A DNA stretch of 64,000 nt from an uncultured Acidobacteriia bacterium (GTDB lineage Bacteria > Acidobacteriota > Terriglobia > Bryobacterales > Bryobacteraceae). The notes below the pieces were generated by a model. That model was given only the letters and a program-made list of their open reading frames with translations. It had not been told where the DNA came from and searched no databases. The stretch lies in the NCBI GenBank assembly GCA_903925975.1, contig CAIYHG010000124.1, forward strand, positions 36,397-100,396, read 5' to 3'. A program made the position numbers and the translations under genes. Shown here piece by piece: positions 3-36,908 of this stretch; the stretch's first letter is position 1, and the number at the start of each line of letters is the position of its first letter.

Positions 3-299
3 CAGGCGGCGCCTTACCCCGGAGCGAACCTGTTCTCCCTCGCCAGCGGAGGCGCCATCTACATCCGCGACCCGCATCAGAAGGTGGTGGAGCGGCAGTT
101 GAACGGCGGGGTGTTCTGCCCGCTCACGGATAAGGACTGGCGGCTGATCCGCCCCTACCTCGAAGAGAACGAGCGGCTCTTCGGCGTCAAGGTGCAGGAT
201 CTGCTGACCGTGGACGGCCAGCTCCGCGAGCCGCAGAGCGTCTACCGCAAGGTGGGGGCCGTGTCGCTTTCGATATTGGCCGGGGAGAAGAAGAAATGA
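3..299 (+). CDS. C-terminal part of a GXGXG / glutamate synthase alpha-subunit-like domain protein (truncated by window edge)
   Basis: Frame open from base 3 (PGANLFSLASGGAIYIRDPHQKVVERQLNGGVFCPLTDKDWRLIRPYLEENERLFGV); resembles the C-terminus of the archaeal-type GltB GXGXG domain; stop overlaps the ATG of hdrC. Confidence 0.5.
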   Translation, partial: QAAPYPGANLFSLASGGAIYIRDPHQKVVERQLNGGVFCPLTDKDWRLIRPYLEENERLFGVKVQDLLTVDGQLREPQSVYRKVGAVSLSILAGEKKK

Positions 300-868
300 C
301 GGGCGGGATGGCTCCATCAATCGAGATCGAGAGCATCGGCGGCAGTCTGGCGGGCGATGTGCAAGCGCGCAGCGGGACCTCGCCGATGAGCTGCTTTCAG
401 TGCGCAAAATGCTCCAGCGGTTGCCCGGTTGCCGCCCGCGCCGATATCAAGCCGCACGAATTGGTACGCATGGTGCAGATGGATCAGCGCGAGGCGGTGC
501 TCTCCAGCCGCTTCATCTGGGAGTGCACGTCCTGCCAGACGTGCGCCACGCGATGCCCGCAGAACGTCAGCGTTGCCGGCATGAATGACGCCTTGCGCGC
601 CATGAGCCGCGCCGCCGCGGCGCCTGCCCCGAGCACCGTGCCCGCGTTTACCGAGGTCTTCCTGGACGCCGTACGCAACCGCGGACGCGTATCCGAGCTG
701 GCTCTGATGATCCGCTACAAGCTGCGTACGGGGCGGTTCTTTGAGGACGCGGACAAAGCGCCGGTGATGTTGAAGAAGGGCAAGCTGCCGCTGTTCGGAA
801 CGCAAGTGGGCGGCAAGAGCGAGCGCAAGGCTCTGTTTGCGCGCGCCGCCAAGGGAGGCGCGAAGTGA
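296..868 (+). CDS. hdrC: Heterodisulfide reductase subunit C-like 4Fe-4S protein
   Basis: Two CxxCxxCxxxC clusters (CFQCAKCSSGCP, CTSCQTCATRCP) in a 190-aa protein, followed by HdrB and HdrA. Confidence 0.85.
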   Translation: MTGGMAPSIEIESIGGSLAGDVQARSGTSPMSCFQCAKCSSGCPVAARADIKPHELVRMVQMDQREAVLSSRFIWECTSCQTCATRCPQNVSVAGMNDALRAMSRAAAAPAPSTVPAFTEVFLDAVRNRGRVSELALMIRYKLRTGRFFEDADKAPVMLKKGKLPLFGTQVGGKSERKALFARAAKGGAK

Positions 869-1737
869 GTTACACATTCTTTCCAGGCTGCTCGCTCGAA
901 GGCTCGGCCAAAGACTTCCACAGCTCCACCATGGCCGTCGCGGCGAAACTGGGTCTGGGCCTGCCCGAACTGAAGGATTGGATCTGCTGCGGCTCTACCG
1001 CGGCTCACGCAAGCGACCCGCTGCTGGCCGACGCACTTCCCGCGAAAAGTCTCTCGGCCGCGGGCGGCGCCACCGTAGCGGTGGCCTGCGCCGCCTGTTA
1101 CTCCCGCCTCAAGACGGCGAACCATCACATAGCCTCCGATGCCGCGCTACGAGCCAAAGTCGCCGAAGTTGTGGGGCGCGACTACGACGGCCGCACGCCC
1201 GTGCTGCACATGCTGGAGATTCTTTGCCGGGACGTAGGCCTCGACCGAATCGCGGCGGCCGTCAGCCGTCCGCTGTCCGGGTTGAAAGTGGCTTGCTACT
1301 ACGGCTGCCTGCTGGCGCGTCCGCCAGAGATCACGAACTTCGATGACGCCGAGAACCCCACGCTGATGGACAAGCTCATGGAGGCGGCCGGGGCAGAGCC
1401 AGTCGATTGGCCGTACAAAACTGAATGCTGCGGAGCGAGCGCGTCCATCACGGATTCGAGCATCGTGCTCGATCTGGGCAACAAGATCTTGGCGATGGCC
1501 CAGACGGCCGGCGCCGATTGCATCGTGACGGCGTGCCCTCTGTGCCAGTTGAACCTGGACCTTCGGCAGAAGGACATGGAAGCCAGATTCGGGCGCACGT
1601 ATAACCTGCCGGTGTTCTACTTCACGCAGTTGCTGGGCCTGGCCATGGGCTGCCCGGCGGACAAACTATCGCTGGCAAGTTTGGTGGTGGAGCCGCAGGC
1701 GTTGCTCCAAGCCAAGGGAATCGGCGCTGAGGCATGA
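865..1737 (+). CDS. hdrB: Heterodisulfide reductase subunit B-like protein (CCG domains)
   Basis: SYTFFPGCSLEGSAKDF start and cysteine-rich CCG motifs (CCGSTAAH..CAACYSRL; CCGASAS..CPLCQLNLD). Confidence 0.9.
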   Translation: MSYTFFPGCSLEGSAKDFHSSTMAVAAKLGLGLPELKDWICCGSTAAHASDPLLADALPAKSLSAAGGATVAVACAACYSRLKTANHHIASDAALRAKVAEVVGRDYDGRTPVLHMLEILCRDVGLDRIAAAVSRPLSGLKVACYYGCLLARPPEITNFDDAENPTLMDKLMEAAGAEPVDWPYKTECCGASASITDSSIVLDLGNKILAMAQTAGADCIVTACPLCQLNLDLRQKDMEARFGRTYNLPVFYFTQLLGLAMGCPADKLSLASLVVEPQALLQAKGIGAEA

Positions 1738-4700
1738 CTATGATCTCGAAGAAGGAGAATGCGCATCACGCGCCTGAGGCTGTGGGCGCGGTGTTGGTCT
1801 GCGGCGCGGGCATCGCCGGCATCCAGGCGTCTCTCGATCTCGCCGAGAGCGGCTTCAAAGTCTACCTCCTGGATTCTTCCCCCGCCATCGGCGGGCGGAT
1901 GGCCCAGCTCGATAAGACGTTCCCCACCGGCGACTGCGCCATGTGTACGCTCTCGCCCAAGCTGGTGGAGTGCGCGCGGAACAAGAACATCGAGATCATC
2001 ACGCTCGCCGATGTGCAGGAAGTCTCTGGCGAGCCGGGCAATTTCAAGGTCAAGATCCGGCAGAACCCGCGCTACGTGGATCTGAGCAAGTGCAACGCGT
2101 GCGGAGACTGCACCGACGCCTGCCCCGTGGATCTTCCCAACGAATTCGACCGCAAGTTGGGGACGCGGAAGGCCATCTTCCGCCCCTATCCGCAAGCCAT
2201 TCCGAACGTCTTTGGAATCTCGAAGGCCGAAGGGCGCGCGCCGTGTAAATCGGAGTGCCCGGCCGGCGTGAATGCGCAGGGCTACGTGGCCCTGGTGGCC
2301 GCCGGCAAGTTCAAGGAAGCTTACGACCTGATTCGCGAGCGCTGCCCTCTGCCCGCCGCGTGCGGGCGCGTATGCCAGCACCCTTGCGAGGAGAGTTGCA
2401 ACCGCGGCGAGATCGATGAAGCCGTTTCCGTCCGCAATCTGAAGCGCTTCGTGGCCGATTACATTCACGCCAACCCGGAACAGTATCCGGCCGCCAAGCC
2501 GCGCGCATCGAAGCAGACCGCGAAAGTTGCCGTGATCGGCGGCGGCCCCGCCGGGCTGACTGCCAGCGCGGATCTGGCGCTGCTGGGATACGGCGTCACG
2601 CTCTTTGAAGCGCAGCCCCATCTGGGCGGCATGCTGCGTTACGGCATTCCCGCTTATCGCCTGCCCAATGACGTGCTGGATAAGGAAATCCAGTACATTC
2701 TCGATCTCGGCGTGGAAGCCAGAACGAACGCGCCCGTGGCCGATCCGGCAAGTCTCTTGCAGTCCGGATTCAACGCGGTGTTCGCTGCGCCCGGCGCCTG
2801 GATCAGCCGCAAGCTGGGCATCGCGGGCGAGGATGCGCCTGGCGTATGGGCCGGCCTGGATTTCCTGCGCGACGTCAACAGCGGCAAGACGCCGGTGATC
2901 GGTCCGAACGTAGTCGTGATCGGCGGCGGCGACGTGGCCATGGATGCGGCCCGCTGCGCTCTGCGCATGCCCGGCGTGAAGACGGTGCGCGTGGCGTGTT
3001 TGGAGAGCCGCGCCGAGATGCCGGCCCACTCCTGGGAAGCGGCCGAGGCGCTCGAAGAGGGCGTGGTCTTCCACAATGGCCTGGGCCCCGTACGCATCGA
3101 GATAGTGGGCGGCAAGGTCGCCGGAATTTCTTTCCGCGCCTGCACCAGCGTGTTCGACGAGAGTAAGCGGTTCAATCCCAAGTTCGACGATTCCAAAACG
3201 AGTTCACTGGCGGCCGATACCGTGATCGTGACCATCGGCCAGGGTATCGATTCGGCCGGGTTGGGCGTGGCCACCGGTCCCGGTGGACGGATCGGCGCCG
3301 ATAGATATTCCCAAGCCACGAACGTTCCTGGAATTTTCGCGGGCGGCGACGCGGTGCTGGGGCCGGCATCCATGGTGGATGCGATGGCGCAGGGGCACCG
3401 GGCGGCCGAATCCATCGACGCCTATTTGCGCGGCGCCCGGGCGGCGCAGGCGCCGCTATTGAACACGCTTCCGGAAAAGGCTCCCAATCCCCGGCCTGAC
3501 GCTCCCCGGCAGGACCGCGTGGCGATGCCGCATTCCGCTCCGGCGGCGCGCCTGGGAAGCTTTACCGAAATCGACCTGGGCTACAGCCCGGAGCAGGCTA
3601 TCGCCGAGGCGCGGCGCTGCCTGGCTTGCGGCGGGTGCAGCGAGTGCATGCAGTGCGTGAAGGCCTGCTCGGCAGGGGCCGTGCGGCACGATCAACTGCC
3701 GGGCGAGCGCGAGATCGCCGTGGGCAGCGTGCTCCTCACGCCCGGTTTTGAGACGTTCCAGGCATCGCTCCGCGGCGAGTTCGGCCACGGGCGCTACCCC
3801 AATGTTCTTTCGAGCATTCAGTTCGAGCGCATGCTCTCGGCTGCCGGTCCAACGGGCGGCCACGTGCAGCGTCCCTCGGATGGCGGCGAAGTTAAGAAGA
3901 TCGCGTTCATCCAATGCGTGGGCAGCCGCGACGCGGCGCGGGGCAATAATTACTGCTCGTCCATCTGCTGCATGAGCGCCACCAAGGAAGCCATGGTGGC
4001 GATCGAACACGCGCAGGGAAAGGAGATGGAAGTATCCATCTTCTGCATGGACGTGCGCGCGTTCGGCAAGGACTTCGATAACTACGTCAACCGCGCCCGC
4101 GACGAGAACGGCGTGAAGTACATACGCGCGATTCCCTCCCGCGTGATCGAGACGCCCGGTTCGAAGAACCCGGCGGTTCGCTACTTCGACCAGAGCGGCT
4201 CCGAACAGCAACAGGAGTACGACTTGGTGGTGCTCAGCGTGGGGATGCGCGTTCCCGCCGAACTGCGGCAGTTAGCCGCCCGGCTGGGCGTGGAGCTCAA
4301 CGAATTCGGTTTTGCGCAAACGGGGCGACTCGCTCCGCAGGAAACTTCCCGGCCCGGCATCTATGTGGCAGGGGCGTTCCAGGAGCCCAAGGACATTCCC
4401 GAAGCCGTGGCGCAAGCCTCGGCGGCGGCCGTGTGCGCGATGGACCGGCTGGCCCAATCTCGCGGCACGATGATCCAGCGGCGCGAGTACCCTTGGGAGC
4501 GCGACATCACGGACGAAGAGCCGCGCGTGGGCGTATTCATCTGCCACTGCGGCAGCAATATCGCCTCGGTGGTGGATGTGGAGAAGGTGGCCCAATCCGC
4601 CGCGCGCATGCCCAACGTTCTGCATGCCGAAGCGAGTCTTTACACCTGCTCGGATACGAACCAGCAGCACATCAAGGACATGATCAAGACGCACCGGCTC

Positions 4701-6206
4701 AACCGGTTGGTCGTGGCCTCGTGCTCGCCGCGCACGCACGAAGTACTGTTCCAGGAGACGCTGCGCGATAGCGGACTGAATCAGTACCTGTTCGCGATGA
4801 CCAATATCCGCGACCAGGATTCCTGGGTTCATAAGACCGACCACGTTGCCGCGACCGAGAAGGCCGTGGACCTGATGCAGATGGCCGTGGCGCGCGCGTG
4901 GCATCTGAAGCCGCTGCAAACCGGCCAACTGCCCGTGACCGCTTCGGCGCTCATCATCGGCGGCGGGTTAGCGGGTATGACGGCGGCGATGGCCATCGCC
5001 GGCCAGGGCTTCGCAGTGCATCTGGTGGAGAAGGAGGCGGCTCTCGGCGGCCTTCTGCGCGGCATCCACAACACGCTCGATGGCGCGGATGTGCAAGCCC
5101 ACCTGAAGCAACTCGTCGCCAAGGTGCAGGCGAATTCCAAGATCCGCGTGTACTTGAATGCCACCCCGGCCAGCATTAAGGGCCATGTGGGCAACTTCAA
5201 GAGCGTGCTGAACGTGGCGGGAACGGAGACGCCCATCAGCCACGGAGTTGTGATCATCGCCTCCGGCGGGCAGGAACGAACGACCGAACTTTACCTGCAC
5301 GGCAAGAACCCGCACGTGACCACGCAGTCGAAGCTCGAAGCCGCGCTGGCGGGCGGAAAACTGCCGCCCGAACTGGCGGGCAAGCAGTCTCCCACGGTGG
5401 TGATGATTCAGTGCGTGGAGAGCCGTAACGATAAGAACCCTTATTGCAGCCGGGTCTGCTGTTCGGAAGCGGTGAAGAACGCGCTGGAGATCAAACGGCG
5501 GCTGCCGCAGGCCAGAGTGGCCGTGCTGGGCCGCGACATCCGCACCTACGGATTCCGCGAGCTGCAATTTGAAGCGGCGCGCAAGGCCGGGGTGCTGTTC
5601 ATCCGCTATCCGGAGAAGAGCGACCCGGTGGTGACCGAAGAGAACGGCCAGCTCAAGGTGACGGTCCATGACGTGGCGAGCAATCGCGAAGTCACGCTGC
5701 GGCCGGACCTGCTGACGCTCTCGACCGGTATTGCTCCGGCGGCTGACAATCCGATACTTTCGGGGCTGCTGCGGAGCGCGTTAACGGCGGATGGCTTCTT
5801 TCTTGAAGCGCACCCGAAACTTCGCCCGGTGGACCTTGCCAATGAAGGCGAGTTCCTCTGCGGCGTCGCGCACTCGCCCAGATCCATCGACGAGACCATC
5901 GCGCAGGCGCAGGCGGCCGCGGGGCGGGCCACCACGATACTCTCCAAGACACACCTGGAGATTCCCGGACAAGTGGCGCGCGTCAACACCGAAGACTGCG
6001 TCGCGTGCGCCACGTGCGTGAAGGTTTGCCCGTACGGCGCGCCGATGATCAACAGTCTCAAGAAGGCGGAAATCCAGGGCGCCAAGTGCATGGGCTGCGG
6101 AAGTTGCGCGGCGGCCTGCCCGGCCAGGACCATCACCCTCCAGCACCAGGAAAGCGAGGCCGTGGTGGCGATGCTCGATGAGTTGCTCGTGGGAGTGAAC
6201 GCATGA
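1734..6206 (+). CDS. hdrA: Tandem HdrA-like protein with an embedded GltD/NADPH:acceptor oxidoreductase-like FAD-NAD(P) module
   Basis: 1490 aa; three flavin Rossmann motifs (GAGIAG, GGGPAG, GGGLAG), GltD-like CKSECPAGVNAQGY..CGRVCQHPCEESCNRG and GGGDVAMDAAR, canonical HdrA GVFICHCGSNI..CSPRTHE, C-terminal double 4Fe-4S ferredoxin. Confidence 0.9.
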   Translation: MTMISKKENAHHAPEAVGAVLVCGAGIAGIQASLDLAESGFKVYLLDSSPAIGGRMAQLDKTFPTGDCAMCTLSPKLVECARNKNIEIITLADVQEVSGEPGNFKVKIRQNPRYVDLSKCNACGDCTDACPVDLPNEFDRKLGTRKAIFRPYPQAIPNVFGISKAEGRAPCKSECPAGVNAQGYVALVAAGKFKEAYDLIRERCPLPAACGRVCQHPCEESCNRGEIDEAVSVRNLKRFVADYIHANPEQYPAAKPRASKQTAKVAVIGGGPAGLTASADLALLGYGVTLFEAQPHLGGMLRYGIPAYRLPNDVLDKEIQYILDLGVEARTNAPVADPASLLQSGFNAVFAAPGAWISRKLGIAGEDAPGVWAGLDFLRDVNSGKTPVIGPNVVVIGGGDVAMDAARCALRMPGVKTVRVACLESRAEMPAHSWEAAEALEEGVVFHNGLGPVRIEIVGGKVAGISFRACTSVFDESKRFNPKFDDSKTSSLAADTVIVTIGQGIDSAGLGVATGPGGRIGADRYSQATNVPGIFAGGDAVLGPASMVDAMAQGHRAAESIDAYLRGARAAQAPLLNTLPEKAPNPRPDAPRQDRVAMPHSAPAARLGSFTEIDLGYSPEQAIAEARRCLACGGCSECMQCVKACSAGAVRHDQLPGEREIAVGSVLLTPGFETFQASLRGEFGHGRYPNVLSSIQFERMLSAAGPTGGHVQRPSDGGEVKKIAFIQCVGSRDAARGNNYCSSICCMSATKEAMVAIEHAQGKEMEVSIFCMDVRAFGKDFDNYVNRARDENGVKYIRAIPSRVIETPGSKNPAVRYFDQSGSEQQQEYDLVVLSVGMRVPAELRQLAARLGVELNEFGFAQTGRLAPQETSRPGIYVAGAFQEPKDIPEAVAQASAAAVCAMDRLAQSRGTMIQRREYPWERDITDEEPRVGVFICHCGSNIASVVDVEKVAQSAARMPNVLHAEASLYTCSDTNQQHIKDMIKTHRLNRLVVASCSPRTHEVLFQETLRDSGLNQYLFAMTNIRDQDSWVHKTDHVAATEKAVDLMQMAVARAWHLKPLQTGQLPVTASALIIGGGLAGMTAAMAIAGQGFAVHLVEKEAALGGLLRGIHNTLDGADVQAHLKQLVAKVQANSKIRVYLNATPASIKGHVGNFKSVLNVAGTETPISHGVVIIASGGQERTTELYLHGKNPHVTTQSKLEAALAGGKLPPELAGKQSPTVVMIQCVESRNDKNPYCSRVCCSEAVKNALEIKRRLPQARVAVLGRDIRTYGFRELQFEAARKAGVLFIRYPEKSDPVVTEENGQLKVTVHDVASNREVTLRPDLLTLSTGIAPAADNPILSGLLRSALTADGFFLEAHPKLRPVDLANEGEFLCGVAHSPRSIDETIAQAQAAAGRATTILSKTHLEIPGQVARVNTEDCVACATCVKVCPYGAPMINSLKKAEIQGAKCMGCGSCAAACPARTITLQHQESEAVVAMLDELLVGVNA

Positions 6207-6682
6207 TTCAAACGGATCGAGAAGAAACCACGGCGACTGTTGCCGGCGCCTGGGAACCGCAGGTGATCGCTTTCTGCTGCAATTTCTGCGCGTATGCGGC
6301 GGCCGATCTGGCGGGCGCGAAACGCATGCAGTATCCCGTAAACGTGCGGATCATCCTTACGCCGTGCACGGGCAAGATCGAAATGGAACACATCCTCGAT
6401 GCCTTCGAAAAAGGTATCGACGGAATCCTGGTGGCGGGGTGCCTCGAAGGCGGCTGCCACTTCATCGAGGGCAACCTGCGGGCGCGCAAGCGCACCGACC
6501 GTATCCGCGAGATGCTCGACGAAATCGGCGTTGGCTCGAAGCGGCTGAAGATGGTGAATTTCTCGGCCGCCGAAGCGCCGGCCTTCGTCAGGCACGTTAC
6601 CGAGATTGTCGAAACCGTTCGTGCGCTGGGTCCGAATCCCCTGAAAAAGTCATCGCAGAAAGAGAGCGCGGTAGAAGCATGA
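6203..6682 (+). CDS. mvhD: Hydrogenase iron-sulfur subunit (MvhD/FrhD family)
   Basis: CCNFCAYAAADLAG..VRIILTPCTGKIEMEHILDAFEKGIDGILVAGCLEGGCHFIEGN motif set. Confidence 0.88.
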   Translation: MIQTDREETTATVAGAWEPQVIAFCCNFCAYAAADLAGAKRMQYPVNVRIILTPCTGKIEMEHILDAFEKGIDGILVAGCLEGGCHFIEGNLRARKRTDRIREMLDEIGVGSKRLKMVNFSAAEAPAFVRHVTEIVETVRALGPNPLKKSSQKESAVEA

Positions 6683-7347
6683 TAGTCGCCACCCCCAAAT
6701 CCGTTACCGAACTGAAGAACACGATTGCGCAGCACGGCAAGGTCCTGTTTGTGGGCTGCGGCACGTGCGTTACGGTGTGTCTGGCCGGCGGCGAGCGCGA
6801 GGTCGGCATCGCCTCCTATGCCGTGCGCATGGCGCGCAAGATTGAGGGCAAGCCGCTCCAGCTTTCGCAGATGACGATTGAGCGCCAGTGCGAAAACGAG
6901 TTCATCAAGGATGTGGCGGAGGAAGCCGCCAAGGTGGACGCCATCGTATCGTTCGCCTGCGGCGCCGGCGTGCAGGCGATGGCCGAGCGCTTCCCCGGCA
7001 AGCCGGTCTACCCCGCGCTGAACACGCAGTTCCTCGGCATTCTGGAAGAGCAGGCCGTCTGGACGGAGAAATGCCTGGGCTGCGGCGATTGCATGCTGGC
7101 GCAATTCGGCGGCATATGCCCCGTGACCAGATGCGCCAAACGCATGCTGAACGGCCCCTGCGGCGGCTCCACCGAAAAGCACTGCGAAGTGTCTGCCGAC
7201 CGTCCCTGCGCCTGGCAGTTAATCTACAAGCGCCTGGAGAGCGTCGGCCAACTAGACCGGTTAGACGCCATCATGCCCCCGAAGGACTGGAGCACCGCGT
7301 GGTACAGCGGCGCGAGGCAGGTTGTGAGAAAAGATCATCGGGTGTAA
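6679..7347 (+). CDS. metV: Methylenetetrahydrofolate reductase C-terminal-domain (MetV-like) iron-sulfur/zinc protein
   Basis: In-frame ATG at 6679 overlaps mvhD stop; CGTCVTVCLAGGEREV..CLGCGDCML..GICPVTRCAKRMLNGPCGG motifs. Confidence 0.8.
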   Translation: MIVATPKSVTELKNTIAQHGKVLFVGCGTCVTVCLAGGEREVGIASYAVRMARKIEGKPLQLSQMTIERQCENEFIKDVAEEAAKVDAIVSFACGAGVQAMAERFPGKPVYPALNTQFLGILEEQAVWTEKCLGCGDCMLAQFGGICPVTRCAKRMLNGPCGGSTEKHCEVSADRPCAWQLIYKRLESVGQLDRLDAIMPPKDWSTAWYSGARQVVRKDHRV

Positions 7348-7383: not shown

Positions 7384-7403
7384 GCCGGTCATTGCTGACC
7401 GGC
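7384..7403. terminator. Perfect 8-bp stem-loop downstream of the hdr/metV operon (possible terminator, no clear T-run)
   Basis: GCCGGTCA-TTGC-TGACCGGC. Confidence 0.4.
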
Positions 7404-7556
7404 TGTCTGAGTCTCCCGTGCGGACAGGGGACTGAAGTCTCGGGCATACCGGTCAGCAAGGTGGGGCCTAGCTACGATTCAGGCCTACTTGTGCGACGAA
7501 CCCCGGACTAGCTCCAAGCGCGCTACCATTGATTTCTGCCGCTGCAGCGTCTTAGG

Positions 7557-8159: not shown

Positions 8160-8328
8160 GGATTCTCCGGATTACTGCCCCGTCAGGCGGCGAGGGACGG
8201 CGGACAGTAACCAATCACTCCAATTCCGTTGAGAGTGCGCGGATCGCAGCGCTCAGCGGTAAGCGTCCCGCAGATTCTTCAATCCACGTCACAAACTGCT
8301 TATGCCGCAGTGCGGTATACTCCGAGAA

Positions 8329-8670
8329 GTGGACGATGCACGCGAGATCACGGTTTATCAGCTCCCGAAGTTCAAGGCTGAGGCGACGGAGTTGATGGGC
8401 GCCGATGGCATTGAGGCGCTGGCGATTTATTTGATTGACCATCCCGATGCCGGCGACGTGATGCCCGGGTCGGGTGGAGTCCGGAAGCTGCGATGGGCAG
8501 CGAAGGGCAAAGGGAAGCGCGGCGGCGCCAGGATCGTTTACCTGTACGTCGTGATTGCCGCCAGCGTTTACCTGATTCGTTGTTACGCCAAGAACGTCAA
8601 GACGGATCTGACCGCGGACGAGAAGAAACAACTACGGCAAATCGCGGCCCATCTGAAAGGAGCGCACTAG
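8329..8670 (+). CDS. RelE/HigB-like toxin of a type II toxin-antitoxin system
   Basis: GGVRKLRWAAKGKGKRGGARIVYLYV..VYLIRCYAKNVKTDLTADEKKQLRQIA typical RelE/HigB; followed by XRE antitoxin; GTG start at 8329 preferred over the 8302 ATG because a TATACT box lies between. Confidence 0.75.
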   Translation: MDDAREITVYQLPKFKAEATELMGADGIEALAIYLIDHPDAGDVMPGSGGVRKLRWAAKGKGKRGGARIVYLYVVIAASVYLIRCYAKNVKTDLTADEKKQLRQIAAHLKGAH

Positions 8671-8671
8671 A

Positions 8672-8983
8672 ATGCCCAGGAAGACCGGCGCGAAGAAGGC
8701 TACATTCGGCGCGGACTTGATCGAGGGAATGGGACTCGTACTGGCTCACCAGAGGGGCAAGGTGGAACTGGAGCAGGCCTGGCCGAAGCCGATCGATGTC
8801 AAAGCAATTCGCAAGCGGGTGAAAATGTCCCAAGCCGAATTCGCGCGGGCGTACGGCCTCAGCAAGCGAGCCTTACAGGAGTGGGAGCAGGGCGGCAGGC
8901 AGCCCGATTCGGCAGCGCGGGCCTACCTGACGGTGATCGCGAAGGAGCCGGCGGTAGTGCGCCGGGCATTGGCTAGCGAATGA
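8672..8983 (+). CDS. XRE-family HTH antitoxin (HigA-like)
   Basis: KRVKMSQAEFARAYGLSKRALQEWEQGGRQPDSAARAYLTVI helix-turn-helix. Confidence 0.8.
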   Translation: MPRKTGAKKATFGADLIEGMGLVLAHQRGKVELEQAWPKPIDVKAIRKRVKMSQAEFARAYGLSKRALQEWEQGGRQPDSAARAYLTVIAKEPAVVRRALASE

Positions 8984-9135: not shown

Positions 9136-12100
9136 TCAGTGAAAGTCGTGCGATTCCGGCGCAGCCCCCGCTCGCAGCGGCTCGATCCGCGCGGCTTTTA
9201 CTGACACTACGTTGTCTACGTTTTGTAAGGCGCCGTCGATTATGAGGAATGTTTCCGAAAGCACTTCGGCTTTATAACGCTCGAAGGTGTCCGGAGTGAC
9301 GATGGCGTTCATGAGGCCGGTTTCGTCTTCCATGCTCAGGAACACGAACCCGTGGGCGGTGCCCGGGCGCTGGCGGACGATTACCGCCCCGGCGATGCGC
9401 ACCACGCGGCCGTTGCGAAGCTTCGTGAGATCGATGGCTCGCGTAACGCCGCGCGCGTTCATCTCATCGCGCCGGTACGCCATGGGGTGCTTGCCAATAG
9501 TCAGGCCGACGCCGCGATAGTCTGCCCCGAGGCGCTCTTCATCGGTCATGCGCGCGAGCGGCGACGCTTGGCCCTTCTCTTCCAGGAACTCGAGCAGCGG
9601 GCCAACCGGCAGTGCGGCCCGCTGCGTCTGCCAGAGCGCATCGCGGCGGTGCATGCGGTCGAGCGAATTCAATGCGCCGATTTCGGCAAGACGATTCAAT
9701 TCGTCTTTGCGCAGTTCGGGGACGCGCAGCGCGAGGTCGTCAATGCTGGTGAACGGGCGCGCGCGCAGGATGGCGCGCCCGGCTTCGGCGCGGAGGCCTT
9801 TTGCGTAGCGCAGGCCCAGGCGCAAGTGGGGCGGACCCCCTGGTCCGCGCGGGTCCCCCTGGACCCGCTGCCCAGAGGCTGGCGCAAGCTTCTCTGGCCG
9901 GCCAGGGGGTCGGCCGCGGACCAGGGGGTCCGCCCCGCCAGGCTCCAGCGTGCAATCCCAATCGGAGCGCTGCACATCTACCGGCAGCACGTGCAGGCCG
10001 TGGCGCTGGGCATCTTTGATGAGGATGGCGGGAGCATAAAAACCCATGGGCTGGTTATTCAGCATGGCGCAGGTGAACGCGCCCAGGTAGTGGCACTTCA
10101 AATACGCGCTGGCATAGGCAATCAGCGCGAAACTGGCCGCGTGGGATTCGGGAAAACCGTAGAGCGCGAAGGCGGTGATCGAGTGAACGACGGCGTCCTG
10201 CGTCGCGCCCGTGATCCCATTGCGTTCCATGCCCGCGCGCAGTTTCACTTCGATATCGGCCATGCGTTTTTCCGAGCGCTTGAAGCCGAGCGCGCGGCGC
10301 AATTCCTCCGCCTGGCCGCCCGTAAAGCCGGCCGCGATCATGGCCATGCGCAGCAACTGCTCCTGAAACAACGGCACGCCGAGCGTCCTTCGCAGCACGG
10401 GTTCGAGCGAGGGATGCAGGCAATCCGGCCGCTCCCTTCCCTGCCGCCGGTTTAGATACGGGTGCACCATTTTCCCCACGATGGGCCCAGGCCGAATGAT
10501 CGCCACCTGCACGACGATGTCGTAGAACCGCTCCGGCCGCATGCGCGGCAGCGTGGCCATTTGCGCGCGGCTCTCCACCTGAAACATGCCCACGGTATCG
10601 GCCTTTTGCAGCGCTCGATAAACCGCGGGATCGTCCGGCGGCAGATGAGCCAGGTCCACTTCTTCGCCATAGGATGCGGGAATGAGCGTCAGGCAATCTT
10701 CGAGCACGGCCATCATGCCCAGGCCGAGCAGGTCCACCTTGATGATGCCCATATCGGCGCAGTCTTCCTTATCCCACTGCACCACCACGCGCCTGGGCAT
10801 CGCGGCCGGTTCGAGAGGCACTACCGAATCGAGCTGCCCCTGGCACACCACCATGCCGCCCGAATGCTGCCCGAGGTGGCGCGGCAGGTCTTGCGCCATG
10901 CGGTATAGCTCGAAGAATTTGCGCACGCGCGGGTGATTGAGGTCGAAGCCCGCATCGCGGAATTGGGCTTCGGTAGTTTCCTTGGGGTCTTTCCATTCCC
11001 ACGCGCGCGCCAGGCCGGAAAGTTTTTCGAGCGTGGTGATTTCGAAGCCGAGCGCCTTGCCGATCTCGCGTGCGGCGGAGCGCCCACGATAGGTGATGAC
11101 GTTGGCCGTCATGGCCGCTCCGAGTTTTCCGAAGCGCTCGTAGACGTACTGGATGGCGCGCTCGCGCTTTTCGCCGCTGGGGAGGTCCATATCGATATCC
11201 GGCCACTCACCGCGCTCTTCGGAGAGGAAGCGTTCGAACAGCAGTTCCATGCCTACGGGATCGACGGCCGTGATTCCCAGGGCGTAGCAGACGGCGCTGT
11301 TGGCCGCGGACCCGCGCCCCTGCGCCAGAATGTTGTTCTCGCGGCAGAAGCGCACGATATCCCAAACGATGAGGAAATAGCCGGCCAGCTTCAGTTTTTC
11401 GATCAGCGCCAGTTCGCGCTCGATCTGGCGCCGCGCGCGCTCGTGATACGGGCGGTAGCGCCATCGCGCGCCCTCGTCCACGCGCTTGCGGAGAAAAGCG
11501 ATCTCCGTCTCGCCACCGGGCGTCGAGTAGCGCGGAAATTCGTAGCCCAGGTCGGCGAGCGTGAAGCCGAGGCGCGCTGAAATTTCGCGCGTATTGGCAA
11601 TGGCCTGCGGGAGATCCGCGAACAGGCGCGCCATTTCGGCGGCGGGCTTCACGTGGCGTTCGGAGTTTTGTTCGAGCAGGCGCCCGGCTCGGGCGAGCGT
11701 TGTTTTGTGGCGCACGCAGGCGAACGCATCCAGCAGTTCGCGTTGGGGTGGCGTCGCGTAGGCCACGGCGTTGGTCGCCACCCGAGGAATGCCGAGCCGC
11801 CGCGCGCGCTCCACGATTTCCTGGTTGCGCGCTTCCTCATCGCGGCGGTAATGGCGCTGCAATTCGGCATAGACATTTCCGCTTCCAAAGATATCGAGCA
11901 GGCGCTCGTCCGGGCGCCGGGTAATGCAAATGAGGCCGCGCGCAAATTCGGCGAACTCATCCAGCGTCGCGGCCCCCTCGCCTTTTTTCGCGCGCAGCTT
12001 CATCCGCGTGATCAGGCGGCACAGGTTTTGGTAGCCCTCGCGCGTTTCCGCGAGAAGCGGATACGAGATGCCGTTTGTGCAACTGACTTCCGCGCCGACG

Positions 12101-12291
12101 TGCGCGCGGATGCCCGCCTTTTGCGCGGCCATGTGAAAGCGCGGCGCGCCGTAGAGGCCGTTGCGATCCACCAGCGCCATGGCCGGCATGCCCAGCGCTG
12201 CGCAGGCGCCCGCCAGTTCCTCAGGAACAGCGGCGCCTTCCAGAAAACTGAAGCCGGAGCGGGCGTGGAGTTCGACGTAGGCCTCAGTCAT
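9136..12291 (-). CDS. dnaE2: Error-prone DNA polymerase III alpha subunit DnaE2/ImuC
   Basis: YVELHARSGFSFLEGAAVPEEL, GRGSAANSAVCYALGITAVDP, DIDMDLPSGEKRE, third gene of an imuA-imuB-dnaE2 cassette; start set at in-frame ATG 12291. Confidence 0.92.
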   Translation of the reverse strand: MTEAYVELHARSGFSFLEGAAVPEELAGACAALGMPAMALVDRNGLYGAPRFHMAAQKAGIRAHVGAEVSCTNGISYPLLAETREGYQNLCRLITRMKLRAKKGEGAATLDEFAEFARGLICITRRPDERLLDIFGSGNVYAELQRHYRRDEEARNQEIVERARRLGIPRVATNAVAYATPPQRELLDAFACVRHKTTLARAGRLLEQNSERHVKPAAEMARLFADLPQAIANTREISARLGFTLADLGYEFPRYSTPGGETEIAFLRKRVDEGARWRYRPYHERARRQIERELALIEKLKLAGYFLIVWDIVRFCRENNILAQGRGSAANSAVCYALGITAVDPVGMELLFERFLSEERGEWPDIDMDLPSGEKRERAIQYVYERFGKLGAAMTANVITYRGRSAAREIGKALGFEITTLEKLSGLARAWEWKDPKETTEAQFRDAGFDLNHPRVRKFFELYRMAQDLPRHLGQHSGGMVVCQGQLDSVVPLEPAAMPRRVVVQWDKEDCADMGIIKVDLLGLGMMAVLEDCLTLIPASYGEEVDLAHLPPDDPAVYRALQKADTVGMFQVESRAQMATLPRMRPERFYDIVVQVAIIRPGPIVGKMVHPYLNRRQGRERPDCLHPSLEPVLRRTLGVPLFQEQLLRMAMIAAGFTGGQAEELRRALGFKRSEKRMADIEVKLRAGMERNGITGATQDAVVHSITAFALYGFPESHAASFALIAYASAYLKCHYLGAFTCAMLNNQPMGFYAPAILIKDAQRHGLHVLPVDVQRSDWDCTLEPGGADPLVRGRPPGRPEKLAPASGQRVQGDPRGPGGPPHLRLGLRYAKGLRAEAGRAILRARPFTSIDDLALRVPELRKDELNRLAEIGALNSLDRMHRRDALWQTQRAALPVGPLLEFLEEKGQASPLARMTDEERLGADYRGVGLTIGKHPMAYRRDEMNARGVTRAIDLTKLRNGRVVRIAGAVIVRQRPGTAHGFVFLSMEDETGLMNAIVTPDTFERYKAEVLSETFLIIDGALQNVDNVVSVKAARIEPLRAGAAPESHDFH
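9826..9939. repeat. Palindromic BIME-like repeat inside dnaE2 (in frame)
   Basis: 22-bp perfect inverted repeat GGGGCGGACCCCCTGGTCCGCG (9828-9849) / CGCGGACCAGGGGGTCCGCCCC (9915-9936); each arm is itself a GCGGACC-CCCT-GGTCCGC hairpin. Confidence 0.85.
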
Positions 12292-13552
12292 AACTGCCCT
12301 CCACGAACCAGCCGCGCGGATTGCAGTAGATGCGGTAGAGCGCGCCGTCGCTGAGGGCGATATCCCACTCGTCGCGCGACCACGGGTCGGGCGTCCACCA
12401 ATCCCCCGAAGTCCGCCACGGCCCGGCCAATTGCAGCACCTCGCCGCGAACGCCTTCGGCCGCGACAAACCGGGGGCGCCCGGAATCGATTCTCACGCGC
12501 GCCGCACGCGCGGGGCGGAATACGCGGAATGCCAGACGGCAGGCGCCCGCGCCCCTAGCGGTTGGCGGCGGATTTCTGGACGGGCAAGCTAAAGCATGCC
12601 CCACCAAGGCCTCGGCCATCCGAAACGCCCCCGGCCGATGCGTATCCGGCAGTTCCGGAGAACCCACGTTGCCTTCGCCCACAATGGCCCTGATGCGCGC
12701 CAGAGTGATTTCGAGTTTGACTGGCTCAGGGGCCGCGGGAAGAAACAGGCCGCCTTGCGCCGGGCGCGGCTTCACCGGGTTCATTCCCAGCCACACCGCG
12801 ATAATCGCGCGGGCAGGCGGATGCGCAGCCAGATCCAGTTGCAGCAGCTTCAAAAACGATTTGGAATCGAGCGCCGGCGCGGGCAGCCGCAGCGTGCGCT
12901 CATGCGCCGCGCGGTTTTCCAGTTGCAGCCGGAGCCTCAGTTCGTCGGTGGCGAGCGCGCGCGTCGCCAGGCGCGTGCACAACCCGTTCAATAAACGCGC
13001 CAACAGAAATGACAGCGGCTCCAGCAGGTCCACCGGATACTCCAGCTCGATCTCGTCCTCGTAACGCGCCGGTTCTTCAATGGGCCGCAGTTTGCGCTCG
13101 GCCTCGCCGCGCGCCAGTTCCCGAAGGCGCAATCCTTCCGGGCCGAGCCGTTCGGCGATTCCCAGCGGCGGCAGCGCGGCAAGTTCCCGAAAACGCCGGA
13201 TGCCCCATCGCTCCAGCGTTTCCAGCAATGCGGACGAGGGGTCAAGCTGTTCGAGCGGCAATTCCCCTAGAAACTTGGCTTCATCGCCGTGGGGCACGAT
13301 GTTGATGCCCGCAAATCCCCGCGCCGCGCAGATTGCCGCATCGGGGTTGGAGGCGAGCGCAATGCGAACGCGGGCGCCGGTTTCGCCGGCCCGGCGCGCG
13401 ATGGCCGCCGCCACATCGTGCGGCAACCCGAAAAGGCGGTCGAGGCCAGAGGCATCGAGGGTAACGGTTTGGGGACCGGTCTGCTCCACAACGGGGGAGA
13501 ATTCCAGGGCCAAAGCGGCGAGATTTCCGGTTCCGTGCAGGCACGCGAACAT
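12284..13552 (-). CDS. imuB: Y-family polymerase-like protein ImuB
   Basis: ETGARVRIALASNPDAAICAARGFAG..ALLETLERWGIRRFRELAALPPLGIAERLG; between imuA and dnaE2, overlaps the dnaE2 start. Confidence 0.85.
   Translation of the reverse strand: MFACLHGTGNLAALALEFSPVVEQTGPQTVTLDASGLDRLFGLPHDVAAAIARRAGETGARVRIALASNPDAAICAARGFAGINIVPHGDEAKFLGELPLEQLDPSSALLETLERWGIRRFRELAALPPLGIAERLGPEGLRLRELARGEAERKLRPIEEPARYEDEIELEYPVDLLEPLSFLLARLLNGLCTRLATRALATDELRLRLQLENRAAHERTLRLPAPALDSKSFLKLLQLDLAAHPPARAIIAVWLGMNPVKPRPAQGGLFLPAAPEPVKLEITLARIRAIVGEGNVGSPELPDTHRPGAFRMAEALVGHALACPSRNPPPTARGAGACRLAFRVFRPARAARVRIDSGRPRFVAAEGVRGEVLQLAGPWRTSGDWWTPDPWSRDEWDIALSDGALYRIYCNPRGWFVEGSYD
12545..12604 (-). repeat. GTGGGG-type hairpin repeat inside imuB (in frame; left boundary approximate)
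   Basis: Minus strand GTGGGGCATGCTTTAGCTTGCCCG; encodes the atypical segment VGHALACPSRNPPPTARGAG. Confidence 0.6.
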
Positions 13553-13554
13553 AG

Positions 13555-14301
13555 CTACTCCCGAGTGCGGACCAAAAACGAAGCGTTTACCGCGGGGCCG
13601 GGCTTGCGGCGCGCCGTGTGAACGCGAACGCCGTCGAGTAGCCGGGCATGGGCCGGAATCGCCGGAGCGCCGCGCCAAAGCGTGCTTTCGCGGGCGCATT
13701 CGAGCGTGAGCGAGGAGCAGGTTTTCGCGTTCGATTGCCGTGACACGGCCAGCAGCACGGCCGGCGTATGCTCCACAGCCCGTCGCAGCCGGAACCACGA
13801 AGTGAGCGAGATACGCCGCGCCATCTCGGGCGGCGTATCGCCCAAATCCATCGCCACCATGCCGAACCCGCCGCCCTGCAACAGCAGATCGGCCGCCTGA
13901 AGCGCGTGCTCGGCATTGTGCCCGCAACGAACCCAGAGAAGGCGTTCCAGGCGGACGCCGGCCGCGGCGGCGGAGGCGGGGTCGAAGGCGTCCTCGGCGT
14001 CTATGAGGGCGCAAAATTCCGGTGGGGAGGGGAACTGGGCAGCCCTGCCGGACTGCCCAAGGCAGGCCAGGAGGCCTACCCCACTGGTCGCTTCCGCGAG
14101 AACCGCAATCAGCAGCGCCGTTCTGCCGGAGGAAGCCGGGCCCACGATTTCCGTCAGCGCGCCGCGTGGCAGGCCGCCGATGGCGCGGTCAAGGGCGGGC
14201 ATACCGCTCGAAATAACCTGCGGGGCGGGCCGGGACTGCCACTCCAGGGAATCGCCCAGGACCGTTTCGAACCGCCGTTTCAAGACCGTCGCCGTACCCA
14301 T
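13555..14301 (-). CDS. imuA: RecA-like mutasome accessory protein ImuA
   Basis: GMPALDRAIGGLPRGALTEIVGPASSGRTALLIAVLAEATS Walker-type region; cassette position. Confidence 0.85.
   Translation of the reverse strand: MGTATVLKRRFETVLGDSLEWQSRPAPQVISSGMPALDRAIGGLPRGALTEIVGPASSGRTALLIAVLAEATSGVGLLACLGQSGRAAQFPSPPEFCALIDAEDAFDPASAAAAGVRLERLLWVRCGHNAEHALQAADLLLQGGGFGMVAMDLGDTPPEMARRISLTSWFRLRRAVEHTPAVLLAVSRQSNAKTCSSLTLECARESTLWRGAPAIPAHARLLDGVRVHTARRKPGPAVNASFLVRTRE
14022..14084. repeat. 63-bp GTGGGG...CCCCAC-bounded repeat inside imuA (21 codons, in frame)
   Basis: Minus strand GTGGGGTAGGCCTCCTGGCCTGCCTTGGGCAGTCCGGCAGGGCTGCCCAGTTCCCCTCCCCAC; interrupts the RecA-like LAEAT..EFCALIDAEDAFDP continuity. 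Confidence 0.7.
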
Positions 14302-14409: not shown

Positions 14410-14715
14410 ATGGAGAATGCGACGTTTTGCGTGCCGGAACAGGCCTTAACCGAGTTCTGTTTACGCAACGGGATACGCAAACTCTCACTTTTCGGCTCAG
14501 CGCTTACGGATCGCTTTCGGCCAACCAGCGATGTAGATCTCCTGGTGGAGTTTAAGCCGGAAATTCGTGTGGGTTACTTGAGAATGGCCGCTATGGAGCG
14601 CGAACTTTCGGCGCTTTTCGGCCGCGAAGTCGATTTGCGCACTCCCGATGAACTCAGCCCCTATTTCCGGGAGGATGTAACTCGGTCGGCACGCACTCAA
14701 TATGTCAGTTCCTGA
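14410..14715 (+). CDS. MNT-domain nucleotidyltransferase antitoxin (MntA-like)
   Basis: LSLFGSALTDRFRPTSDVDLLVEF (GSx10DxD) followed by HepT-like gene. Confidence 0.85.
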   Translation: MENATFCVPEQALTEFCLRNGIRKLSLFGSALTDRFRPTSDVDLLVEFKPEIRVGYLRMAAMERELSALFGREVDLRTPDELSPYFREDVTRSARTQYVSS

Positions 14716-15043
14716 CACGATTCGACTCCGCCACATGCTCGACGCGGCTCGCGAAGCCGTCGGGTTCGGGGCAGGAAGCACGACGCCAGAGCTACTTCAG
14801 AATCGCATGTTGGCGTTGGCGATCATCCGGTGCATAGAAATCATCGGGGAGGCTGCTTTTAAGGTCAGTCCGGAAACTCGCGCCCGGCATCCGGAAATCC
14901 CGTGGGTAGACATCATCGGAATGCGTCACCGGCTCGTTCACGCCTATTTCGATGTGGACCTCAACCGCCTTTGCGACACGATTTCAGAAGACCTGCCGCC
15001 TCTGATCGCGATGCTTGAAGCGATCTTGCCTTCTGCGGCCTAG
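14702..15043 (+). CDS. HepT-like HEPN ribonuclease toxin (DUF86)
   Basis: IPWVDIIGMRHRLVHAYFDVD contains the Rx4HxY HepT motif; overlaps the MNT gene. Confidence 0.88.
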   Translation: MSVPDTIRLRHMLDAAREAVGFGAGSTTPELLQNRMLALAIIRCIEIIGEAAFKVSPETRARHPEIPWVDIIGMRHRLVHAYFDVDLNRLCDTISEDLPPLIAMLEAILPSAA

Positions 15044-32316: not shown

Positions 32317-33495
32317 TCACCGTCCCGCAGCTGGCCCCGCGGCCGGAGGCCGCCGTTTCAAAGGGTCTCCGTGCAGATACGAGATCAGGTCGGCCATCTC
32401 AGATCCGCTGAACCGCGGCCACGAAATTCCCTTTAGCCGCATGCGGTCGAGCATCACGGGGCCATGCTTCCAAAGCGCCGCCGCCATGCCAAATGATGTG
32501 ATCGTCCCCGCCATCGCCGCGCGGCTCGGCGCACCGCTCGAAGCGTCGTCATGGCACGCGCCGCAGCGCTTCCGGGCAAACACCTTCCCGCCCTGCGCGA
32601 CGTCGCCGCGTTCTTCGAAAAACTGCATGGAGATCAGGTAGCCCACTACCCGGCGCATTTCCTCCTGCGTGAGCGGCGCCGGATCAACCCGCGTTCGCGT
32701 GGCGTGGTTCCACATGGCCGCGGCAAACTCGGTAAGGCTGTAACGGGTAGGCTGGGCTTCCAGGGATAACTCGCCCGTATGGCAGCCTGCGCAGCCCTTC
32801 GAGGTGAATAGCTGCTCTCCCGACTCCGCCGGGCCGGGCTGAAACTCCACGGCGCGGTTCGATGTCTGCCGGGTTCGCACGTACGCCAGTAGGTCTGTCA
32901 ATTCCTGGCCGGAGAGCAGTGGATACGGAATCCCCACCCTGCCGAACGTGGGCTTCATGTCCCTGGAGTGGTTCCACATCTGCGCGGCCAATTCAATCGG
33001 GTTGGCAACTGCCTCCCAATTCGTCACCGGACGAATGCTGTCACCGGCCGCTGACCCAGTCCCGTGGCACTGCGCGCACTTCTTGGAGTCGAAGAGCCGC
33101 GCGCCCCGGCCGGCATCGCCCGGCTGCGCGAAATCGCGAACGGCAAAGAGGTAGACGAACAGGTCCGCCCCCTCCTGCTCGGCCAAGTCCGGCTTGGAGA
33201 TCGAGGCCTTCTCCATCGCCGCCCACATGACCGGGGCATGGCTCCACAACAAACCCGCCATTACCGACGGACTGAAGTTGCGGACGGCGCCCCGCCCGAG
33301 GTCTGGTGCGCGCTTGCCTCCCACCCCGTTAATGCTGTGGCATGCGCCGCAGTTGCGTGTCTGGAATACGGCCATACCGCGGTCCGCATCGCCGGGCGGC
33401 AAGATTCTGGTAGCGCCGCTCGCGGCGGCCCCTGCGCCGATAATAGCCAGCGCAATTTGTAGCAGCGTTCTCAGGTTGGCAGAGTGCAAGACCAA
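32317..33495 (-). CDS. Tetra-domain c-type cytochrome
   Basis: Four CxxCH motifs (CGACHS, CAQCHG, CAGCHT, CGACHD), each in a repeated cytochrome c module. Confidence 0.88.
   Translation of the reverse strand: MVLHSANLRTLLQIALAIIGAGAAASGATRILPPGDADRGMAVFQTRNCGACHSINGVGGKRAPDLGRGAVRNFSPSVMAGLLWSHAPVMWAAMEKASISKPDLAEQEGADLFVYLFAVRDFAQPGDAGRGARLFDSKKCAQCHGTGSAAGDSIRPVTNWEAVANPIELAAQMWNHSRDMKPTFGRVGIPYPLLSGQELTDLLAYVRTRQTSNRAVEFQPGPAESGEQLFTSKGCAGCHTGELSLEAQPTRYSLTEFAAAMWNHATRTRVDPAPLTQEEMRRVVGYLISMQFFEERGDVAQGGKVFARKRCGACHDDASSGAPSRAAMAGTITSFGMAAALWKHGPVMLDRMRLKGISWPRFSGSEMADLISYLHGDPLKRRPPAAGPAAGR

Positions 33496-35828: not shown

Positions 35829-36908
<1,080 letters not shown>

Follow-up and report, generated by a model that had tools for sequence, protein, structure and literature searches.

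What does the operon at the start of this DNA make, and where would its electrons come from? The window (the whole 64,000-nucleotide stretch analysed, from contig CAIYHG010000124.1 of an uncultured Acidobacteriia bacterium of the Bryobacteraceae) opens inside a row of tightly packed genes for Hdr, MvhD and MetV proteins, preceded by the end of a gene of the glutamate synthase family. A preliminary description of the same stretch had read this row as a possible hybrid electron-bifurcating complex, with emphasis on one-carbon (C1) chemistry. We observed that the row belongs to a ten-gene operon, and we give a probability of about one half to the reading that it encodes a split glutamate synthase (GOGAT), whose GltD subunit is replaced by an electron module of MvhD, MetF, MetV and a Moorella-type HdrCBA. 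This reading rests on gene order and domains, on catalytic and cofactor residues that are kept, on the conservation of the cluster and on neighbouring nitrogen genes.

The operon extends upstream of the window

The source genome has 3.87 Mb and is 86% complete. Base 1 of the window is base 36397 of the contig (C124), so that a C124 position equals the window position plus 36396; the upstream stretch is also numbered as L007. The open reading frame (ORF) listing placed the six consecutive ORFs of the window and the five 4-nt overlaps that join them exactly where they had been reported. Because the window edge cuts it, the first ORF (open at the 5' end) is an incomplete gene. When the contig was extended upstream, as had been proposed, both gltB-type domains and a metF gene turned up. 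The first ORF was seen to be the end of a GATase-GXGXG protein, which confirmed its suspected place in the GltB/GXGXG family; since the ORF runs on upstream, its reading as an isolated GXGXG domain was ruled out. The earlier remark that there is no metF holds inside the window only, as the operon does include a metF gene, located 5.3-6.3 kb before base 1.

The order of the ten genes is mvhD1, metF, FMN1, FMN2, GATase-GXGXG, hdrC, hdrB, hdrA, mvhD2 and metV (Table 1). Overlaps of 4 nt were found at seven of the nine junctions, if FMN2 uses its in-frame ATG, which gives the FMN1/FMN2 overlap at 12515/12518 of L007; the FMN2/GATase-GXGXG overlap is at 14107/14110 of L007.

Table 1. Genes of the operon and the hairpin that follows it (positions are those of the window unless C124 or L007 is named)
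Feature	Position	Strand	Matches and motifs
mvhD1	C124:29597-30205		FlpD, 85.9 bits
metF	C124:30141-31061 = L007:10141-11061, start codon uncertain		MTHFR PF02219, 82.6 bits
FMN1	C124:31073-32518		Glu_synthase, 64 bits
FMN2	C124:32485-34110; ATG at 32515 gives the 4-nt overlap		Glu_synthase, 303 bits
GATase(class II)-GXGXG, 862 aa	C124:34107-36695 = L007:14107-16695; window 3..299 = last 98 codons	+	GATase_6 PF13522, GXGXG PF01493
hdrC	296..868	+	NCBIfam HdrC models, E down to 6.5e-17; two CxxCxxCxxxC motifs (2x[4Fe-4S])
hdrB, two CCG domains	865..1737	+	PF02754 in two stretches, 82.4 bits; TIGR03288, 201 bits
hdrA, 1490 aa	1734..6206	+	NF040770 (HdrA2), 935 bits; PRK12771, 533 bits; segments match 5odc_A and 8rvu
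mvhD2, [2Fe-2S] subunit	6203..6682	+	PF02662 (FlpD), 159 bits; four Cys kept in 86/86
metV, 13 invariant Cys	6679..7347	+	PF12225/DUF5981, 126.6 bits
Perfect hairpin AGCCGGTCA-TTGC-TGACCGGCT, 3' of metV	7384..7405	+	read from the sequence

The upstream genes probably encode a split glutamate synthase

FMN2 aligned to residues 857-1172 of the solved GltB chains (E 7.6e-51), and the equivalents of Azospirillum brasilense Glu978, Lys999 and the [3Fe-4S] cysteines Cys1102, Cys1108 and Cys1113 were invariant in 77 of 77 relatives. We take Glu978 to help couple the glutaminase to the synthase, and to be the equivalent of Glu1013 of the ferredoxin-dependent enzyme. At the N-terminus of FMN2, eight cysteines predict two further [4Fe-4S] clusters. 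The GATase part has Cys32 after a propeptide (EEEGG-CGV), invariant in the 14 sequences aligned, and keeps the motifs HQRYPT, HNGD and TDTE; Cys32 would become the N-terminal catalytic cysteine after cleavage of the propeptide. The GXGXG beta-helix domain matched its Pfam family with 48.5 bits.

FMN1 combines two ferredoxin-type clusters with a degenerate copy of the FMN (flavin mononucleotide) barrel, and it shares one ORF with FMN2 in loci L042 and L084. The candidate assignment of FMN1 as the central domain of GltB was weakened when hhalign placed it on the FMN domain. A single large subunit of ~1500 residues (in the order GATase-central-FMN-GXGXG) is absent, and the split into FMN1, FMN2 and GATase-GXGXG makes this part GltS-like and not GltB itself. 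There is also no free gltD in the operon, the GltD domain being inside HdrA instead. As judged from their sequences, these upstream genes amount to a split glutamate synthase with the catalytic and [3Fe-4S] residues kept.

In a separate observation, reading frames of ~2,540 residues in genomes G414, G524, G378, G359 and G472 matched the GATase-GXGXG profile with ~340 bits, and these are possibly giant glutamate-synthase-like fusions.

The downstream genes resemble the Hdr part of Moorella

The identities first given to the Hdr, MvhD and MetV proteins were all backed by Pfam and NCBIfam matches (Table 1). HdrA contains two HdrA copies in one chain, the second covering residues ~925-1490. The first TrxR-like half is split by a GltD/NfnB-type insert (residues ~165-620) that lies between two ferredoxin motifs, and bifurcation signatures were seen in both halves (E698/K751 and E1202/K1248). 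The GltD-like module noticed in the preliminary description is thus present but not new, as the HdrA of M. thermoacetica and the HdrL of Desulfobacterium autotrophicum have one too. By its nucleotide-binding motif (GGGDVA...CLESR) the insert looks NADH-like; the NADPH-like YRR form of this motif was found in three relatives (L058, L060 and L062). Of the CCG domains of HdrB, the second agrees with the spaced motif; the first has all five cysteines, but not at the spacing used. The HdrCBA-MvhD proteins match the Hdr-MetVF type of Moorella, down to the GltD insert and the bifurcation signature in each half. For MetV, no solved homologue was found by sequence, and the best hit of a search by fold (E 2e-3, with partial overlap) was not usable.

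In loci L083 and L104, the mvhD of the downstream hdr set was read as just 28-31 residues, and 941-1175 nt between hdrB and hdrA stayed unassigned. Both would be expected if an in-frame TGA encodes selenocysteine there; selenocysteine is known in HdrA/MvhD of D. autotrophicum (PMC2702500).

The cluster is conserved across about ten phyla

A scan of 85,462 genomes gave at least 516 relatives. The 80 best, chosen by their similarity to the window's protein, made up the locus survey, and gene order was counted in the 53 loci with at least 6.5 kb of upstream sequence. FMN1/FMN2 were found in all 53, mvhD upstream of the synthase in 52, metF in 43 (41 upstream and 2 downstream) and hdr genes downstream in 19. 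In many loci the metV-metF pair lies immediately 5' of FMN1 and overlaps it by 4 nt. Because independent genomes share the gene order, a chance arrangement is ruled out, and this conserved order takes in the GATase-GXGXG gene.

Among the named hosts, nearly all of them labels of metagenome-assembled genomes (MAGs), are Acidobacteriota, Myxococcota, Actinomycetota, Planctomycetota, Verrucomicrobiota, Armatimonadota, Thermodesulfobacteriota, Chloroflexota, Nitrospirota and two candidate phyla; the cluster spans about ten phyla. Matches to GATase-GXGXG were seen in 19 of the 297 sampled Acidobacteriota genomes; the two sampled from the family of the window gave none. By our count, the strong form occurs in ~55 of 198 genomes of the phylum to which the Desulforapulum MAG belongs.

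Loci L083 and L104 carry a full mvhD-metV-metF-FMN1-FMN2-GATase set followed by a full hdrCBA-mvhD-metV-metF set. Compared with these, the window operon looks like a merger of the synthase set and the Hdr set that kept one metF and one metV; the MetV tree left it undecided from which set the window's metV comes. Relatives of the synthase core were also seen near a GlcD-like FAD (flavin adenine dinucleotide) oxidase, without metF or metV, in L042 (where the oxidase has a ferredoxin domain), L045, L046, L048 and L124. These loci, with a GlcD-like FAD/Fe-S neighbour, suggest that the synthase core accepts different donors.

We also noted that, over the whole operon, the window's proteins share ~52-84% identity with those of L052, L053 and L054 (MAGs labelled Bryobacterales, Actinobacteria and Anaeromyxobacter), which points to cross-phylum transfer of the ten-gene operon, or to mis-binning.

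MetF of the window's clade is losing a folate residue, and nitrogen genes lie near some loci

The MetF tree had two clades; it does not include L138 and L140 (two 'canonical' MetF rows that proved to be mis-picked reading frames), the fusion L132 or the distant L133-L136. The equivalent of the folate-binding Asp120 was kept in 37/37 of clade II and replaced by one of seven other residues in 19/22 of clade I. The window belongs to clade I and is one of its three keepers. At least two MTHFR matches were found in all 46 of the cluster genomes tested, and this ruled out the idea that the cluster is the genome's only source of methyl-tetrahydrofolate (methyl-THF). Together with the loss of Asp120, it makes methyl-THF supply unlikely as the main job of the cluster. 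To us the loss suggests that folate binding matters less where MetF probably serves the synthase, while MetF of the window may still have a folate role.

Another MetVF cluster was seen at L139:1-3906 (parts of it in L138 and L140), with a ferredoxin plus FlpD (MvhD) protein, a LarA-like protein, metV and metF. It suggests that MetVF is a general plug-in redox unit.

When the surroundings were examined, glnA, amtB or glnK was found on 22 of 98 loci (glnA and amtB examples were confirmed by Pfam), including L037, L038, L041 and L060 of the window's clade. By chance, roughly 2-3 of the 98 would be expected, if each genome has a handful of these genes. Of 32 cluster genomes, 18 gave no full-length GltB. 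Among these 18, glutamate dehydrogenase was not found either in three (G309, G320 and G324), in which glutamine synthetase was found, MAG incompleteness being a caveat. The nitrogen side looks more central than the earlier emphasis on a C1 complex.

Proposed electron path and alternatives

In the reaction that we propose, NAD(P)H (probably NADH for this HdrA) would reduce the GltD insert, and the electrons would then cross the HdrA FAD(s) and MvhD, with MetF and MetV as flavin and Fe-S relays, to be received by FMN1 and then FMN2. Cys32 of the GATase would release ammonia from glutamine, which with 2-oxoglutarate would give 2-iminoglutarate, to be reduced to glutamate at FMN2. The potentials are -0.32 V for NADH, about -0.12 V for 2-oxoglutarate/glutamate, about -0.42 V or lower for ferredoxin and about -0.20 V for methyl-THF. 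Since the potential of the glutamate-forming acceptor is much higher than that of NAD(P)H, a second electron could go from the HdrA flavin to a low-potential acceptor, for example ferredoxin, so that glutamate synthesis would be bifurcating. Bifurcation is thermodynamically possible and HdrA has the signatures for it. The fuller proposal, that this is the first electron-bifurcating glutamate synthase, in which NAD(P)H oxidised at HdrA's GltD domain would power both the formation of glutamate and the reduction of ferredoxin, and MetF/MetV would be electron-transfer parts in this clade, is tentative, and we rate it well below the general reading. We infer the physical complex, the path and direction of the electrons, bifurcation, the cofactor preference and the role of MetF from the genes. 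For contact within such a complex, the pull-down of Sporomusa MetF with HdrA, HdrB and MvhD (PMC9430772) is a precedent.

Several observations weigh against a synthase with this electron module. The window's MetF keeps the equivalents of Glu28, Asp120 and Gln183 (E37, D125 and Q196). FMN2 differs uniformly from A. brasilense GltB (Gln943 to His and Glu889 to Tyr), Gln943 being presumably a contact of 2-oxoglutarate, and in view of these differences the substrate is a putative one. The window genome has an ordinary GltB, and also glutamate dehydrogenase, so that the cluster would give it a second GOGAT. In the f28 genomes, the cluster persists although HdrA is degenerate or missing: HdrA is shortened to 1106-1150 residues, without the bifurcation Lys motif, in L037, L038 and L039 (genomes G122, G180 and G037), and hdrA is absent altogether in L036, L040 and L041. 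Bifurcation would therefore be an add-on and not the common core function. The choice of the surveyed loci by similarity to the window's own protein also counts on this side.

The relays could instead run from folate. MetF/MetV would then work in reverse, methyl-THF electrons would reach the synthase via MetV and MvhD, and Hdr would add or remove electrons. This would suit the position of metV-metF directly before FMN1, the folate Asp intact in clade II and the window, and the acetyl-CoA synthase (CdhC) found in 20 of 32 cluster genomes, many of them labelled sulfate reducers, which may oxidise methyl-THF. However, CdhC was not found in the other 12 (this also ruled out that the cluster is always tied to the Wood-Ljungdahl pathway), nor in the window's genome or several near-complete f28 genomes, the Asp is lost in most of clade I, and clusters L063, L079, L095, L113, L101, L121 and L126 have no metF, so we consider a methyl-THF-driven synthase rather unlikely. 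Just as unlikely, in our estimate, are two co-expressed enzymes that form no joint complex, namely a ferredoxin-dependent glutamate synthase and a Moorella-type Hdr-MetVF methylene-THF reductase. The linkage is kept across the phyla listed above, mvhD is upstream of the synthase in nearly every locus, the folate residue is being lost in MetF of the window's clade, and the single metF and metV of the window operon bracket the synthase and hdr genes, so that the halves would need to share parts. Separate enzymes would nevertheless explain why the synthase also stands beside a GlcD-like protein (L042 and L048) or with mvhD only, why the Hdr-MetVF half is complete alone in L083/L104 and in Moorella and Sporomusa (PMC9430772), and why Sporomusa MetVF did not co-purify with Hdr/MvhD. 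Finally, we think it very improbable that the synthase-like part yields a product other than glutamate, as in an N-methylglutamate-synthase-like reaction or another oxo-acid amination. Separate subunits also occur in archaeal-type and N-methylglutamate synthases, and such a product would fit these separate domains and the family-uniform changes in FMN2; against it stand the unchanged loop Glu, Lys and [3Fe-4S] cysteines, the glnA/amtB/glnK neighbours, and the finding that this is the sole full-strength synthase domain in about half of the genomes.

Relation to known systems

The hdr-mvhD-metV order is common to the window and the HdrCBA-MvhD-MetVF clusters of Moorella thermoacetica and Sporomusa ovata (PMC9430772), and the Moorella HdrA likewise has ~1490 residues, a GltD insert and the E/K pair in both halves (E696/K750 and E1204/K1246; PMC9430772). 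Unlike in these clusters as described, metF of the window is near the operon start and not after metV, and a glutamate-synthase set and an extra mvhD are added. The Moorella Hdr-MetVF methylene-THF reductase goes back to Mock 2014, as cited in PMC9430772, and a narrow distribution of the Met complex has been reported (PMC6085437). The Hdr-MvhD-MetV part has thus been partly studied in Moorella and Sporomusa; the module as a whole has not been biochemically defined.

With the NADPH-dependent GltBD the operon shares a class II GATase with an N-terminal Cys, an FMN domain with [3Fe-4S] cysteines, GXGXG and a GltD-type NAD(P)H module. Unlike in GltBD, the GltB parts are separate proteins in another order, a degenerate FMN1 is added, FMN1 and FMN2 each have an extra 2x[4Fe-4S], and the GltD module lies within HdrA, while clusters that have no hdrA do not have it. 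The split archaeal glutamate synthases, including the proposed F420-dependent GltS (PMC3087415, PMC9012536), also have separate domains and a donor subunit from another redox family (FrhB there), but the donor in the window would be MvhD/MetV/MetF with or without Hdr, and GATase and GXGXG are fused. GltD/NfnB-type inserts are also present in the HdrL of D. autotrophicum (PMC2702500) and in type III HdrA/HdrA9-11 of ANME-1 (PMC12054007, PMC9012536), which, unlike the window's HdrA, are not reported beside a glutamate synthase and MetFV. In full-text searches of 5.39 million open papers (subscription papers and preprints lie outside this scope), we met no account in which a glutamate synthase is combined with MvhD/MetV/Hdr. 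The arrangement therefore appears to be undescribed, its novelty being provisional and its Hdr half already known.

Glutamate synthase is a central nitrogen entry point, and its known donors are NAD(P)H via GltD, ferredoxin and (as proposed) F420. If our reading is right, a widespread synthase on the Mvh/Met/Hdr toolkit would be a new donor type and would link one-carbon and bifurcation modules with nitrogen assimilation. It would also bear on the role of MetV and on the second acceptor of Moorella-type HdrCBA-MvhD-MetVF complexes. A bifurcating synthase would recover energy that ordinary GOGAT wastes, and MetF/MetV would have turned from a folate enzyme into electron-transfer parts. In MAGs, metF-metV-hdr genes are unsafe as evidence for the Wood-Ljungdahl pathway, given the 12 cluster genomes in which CdhC was not found.

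Flanking features of the window

No promoter was found by a scan of the sequence 5' of mvhD1. By eye, a histidine-kinase-like ORF lies upstream of the operon and an unrelated ORF downstream. The hairpin that follows metV is a plausible operon end, if a weak one, with no T-run after it. Further along the window, a stretch on the minus strand (9136-14301) resembles, by eye, an ImuA-ImuB-DnaE2 mutagenesis cassette, and two others, at 8302-8983 and ~14450-15043, resemble toxin-antitoxin pairs (RelE/HigB with a helix-turn-helix protein, and an MNT nucleotidyltransferase with a HEPN protein).

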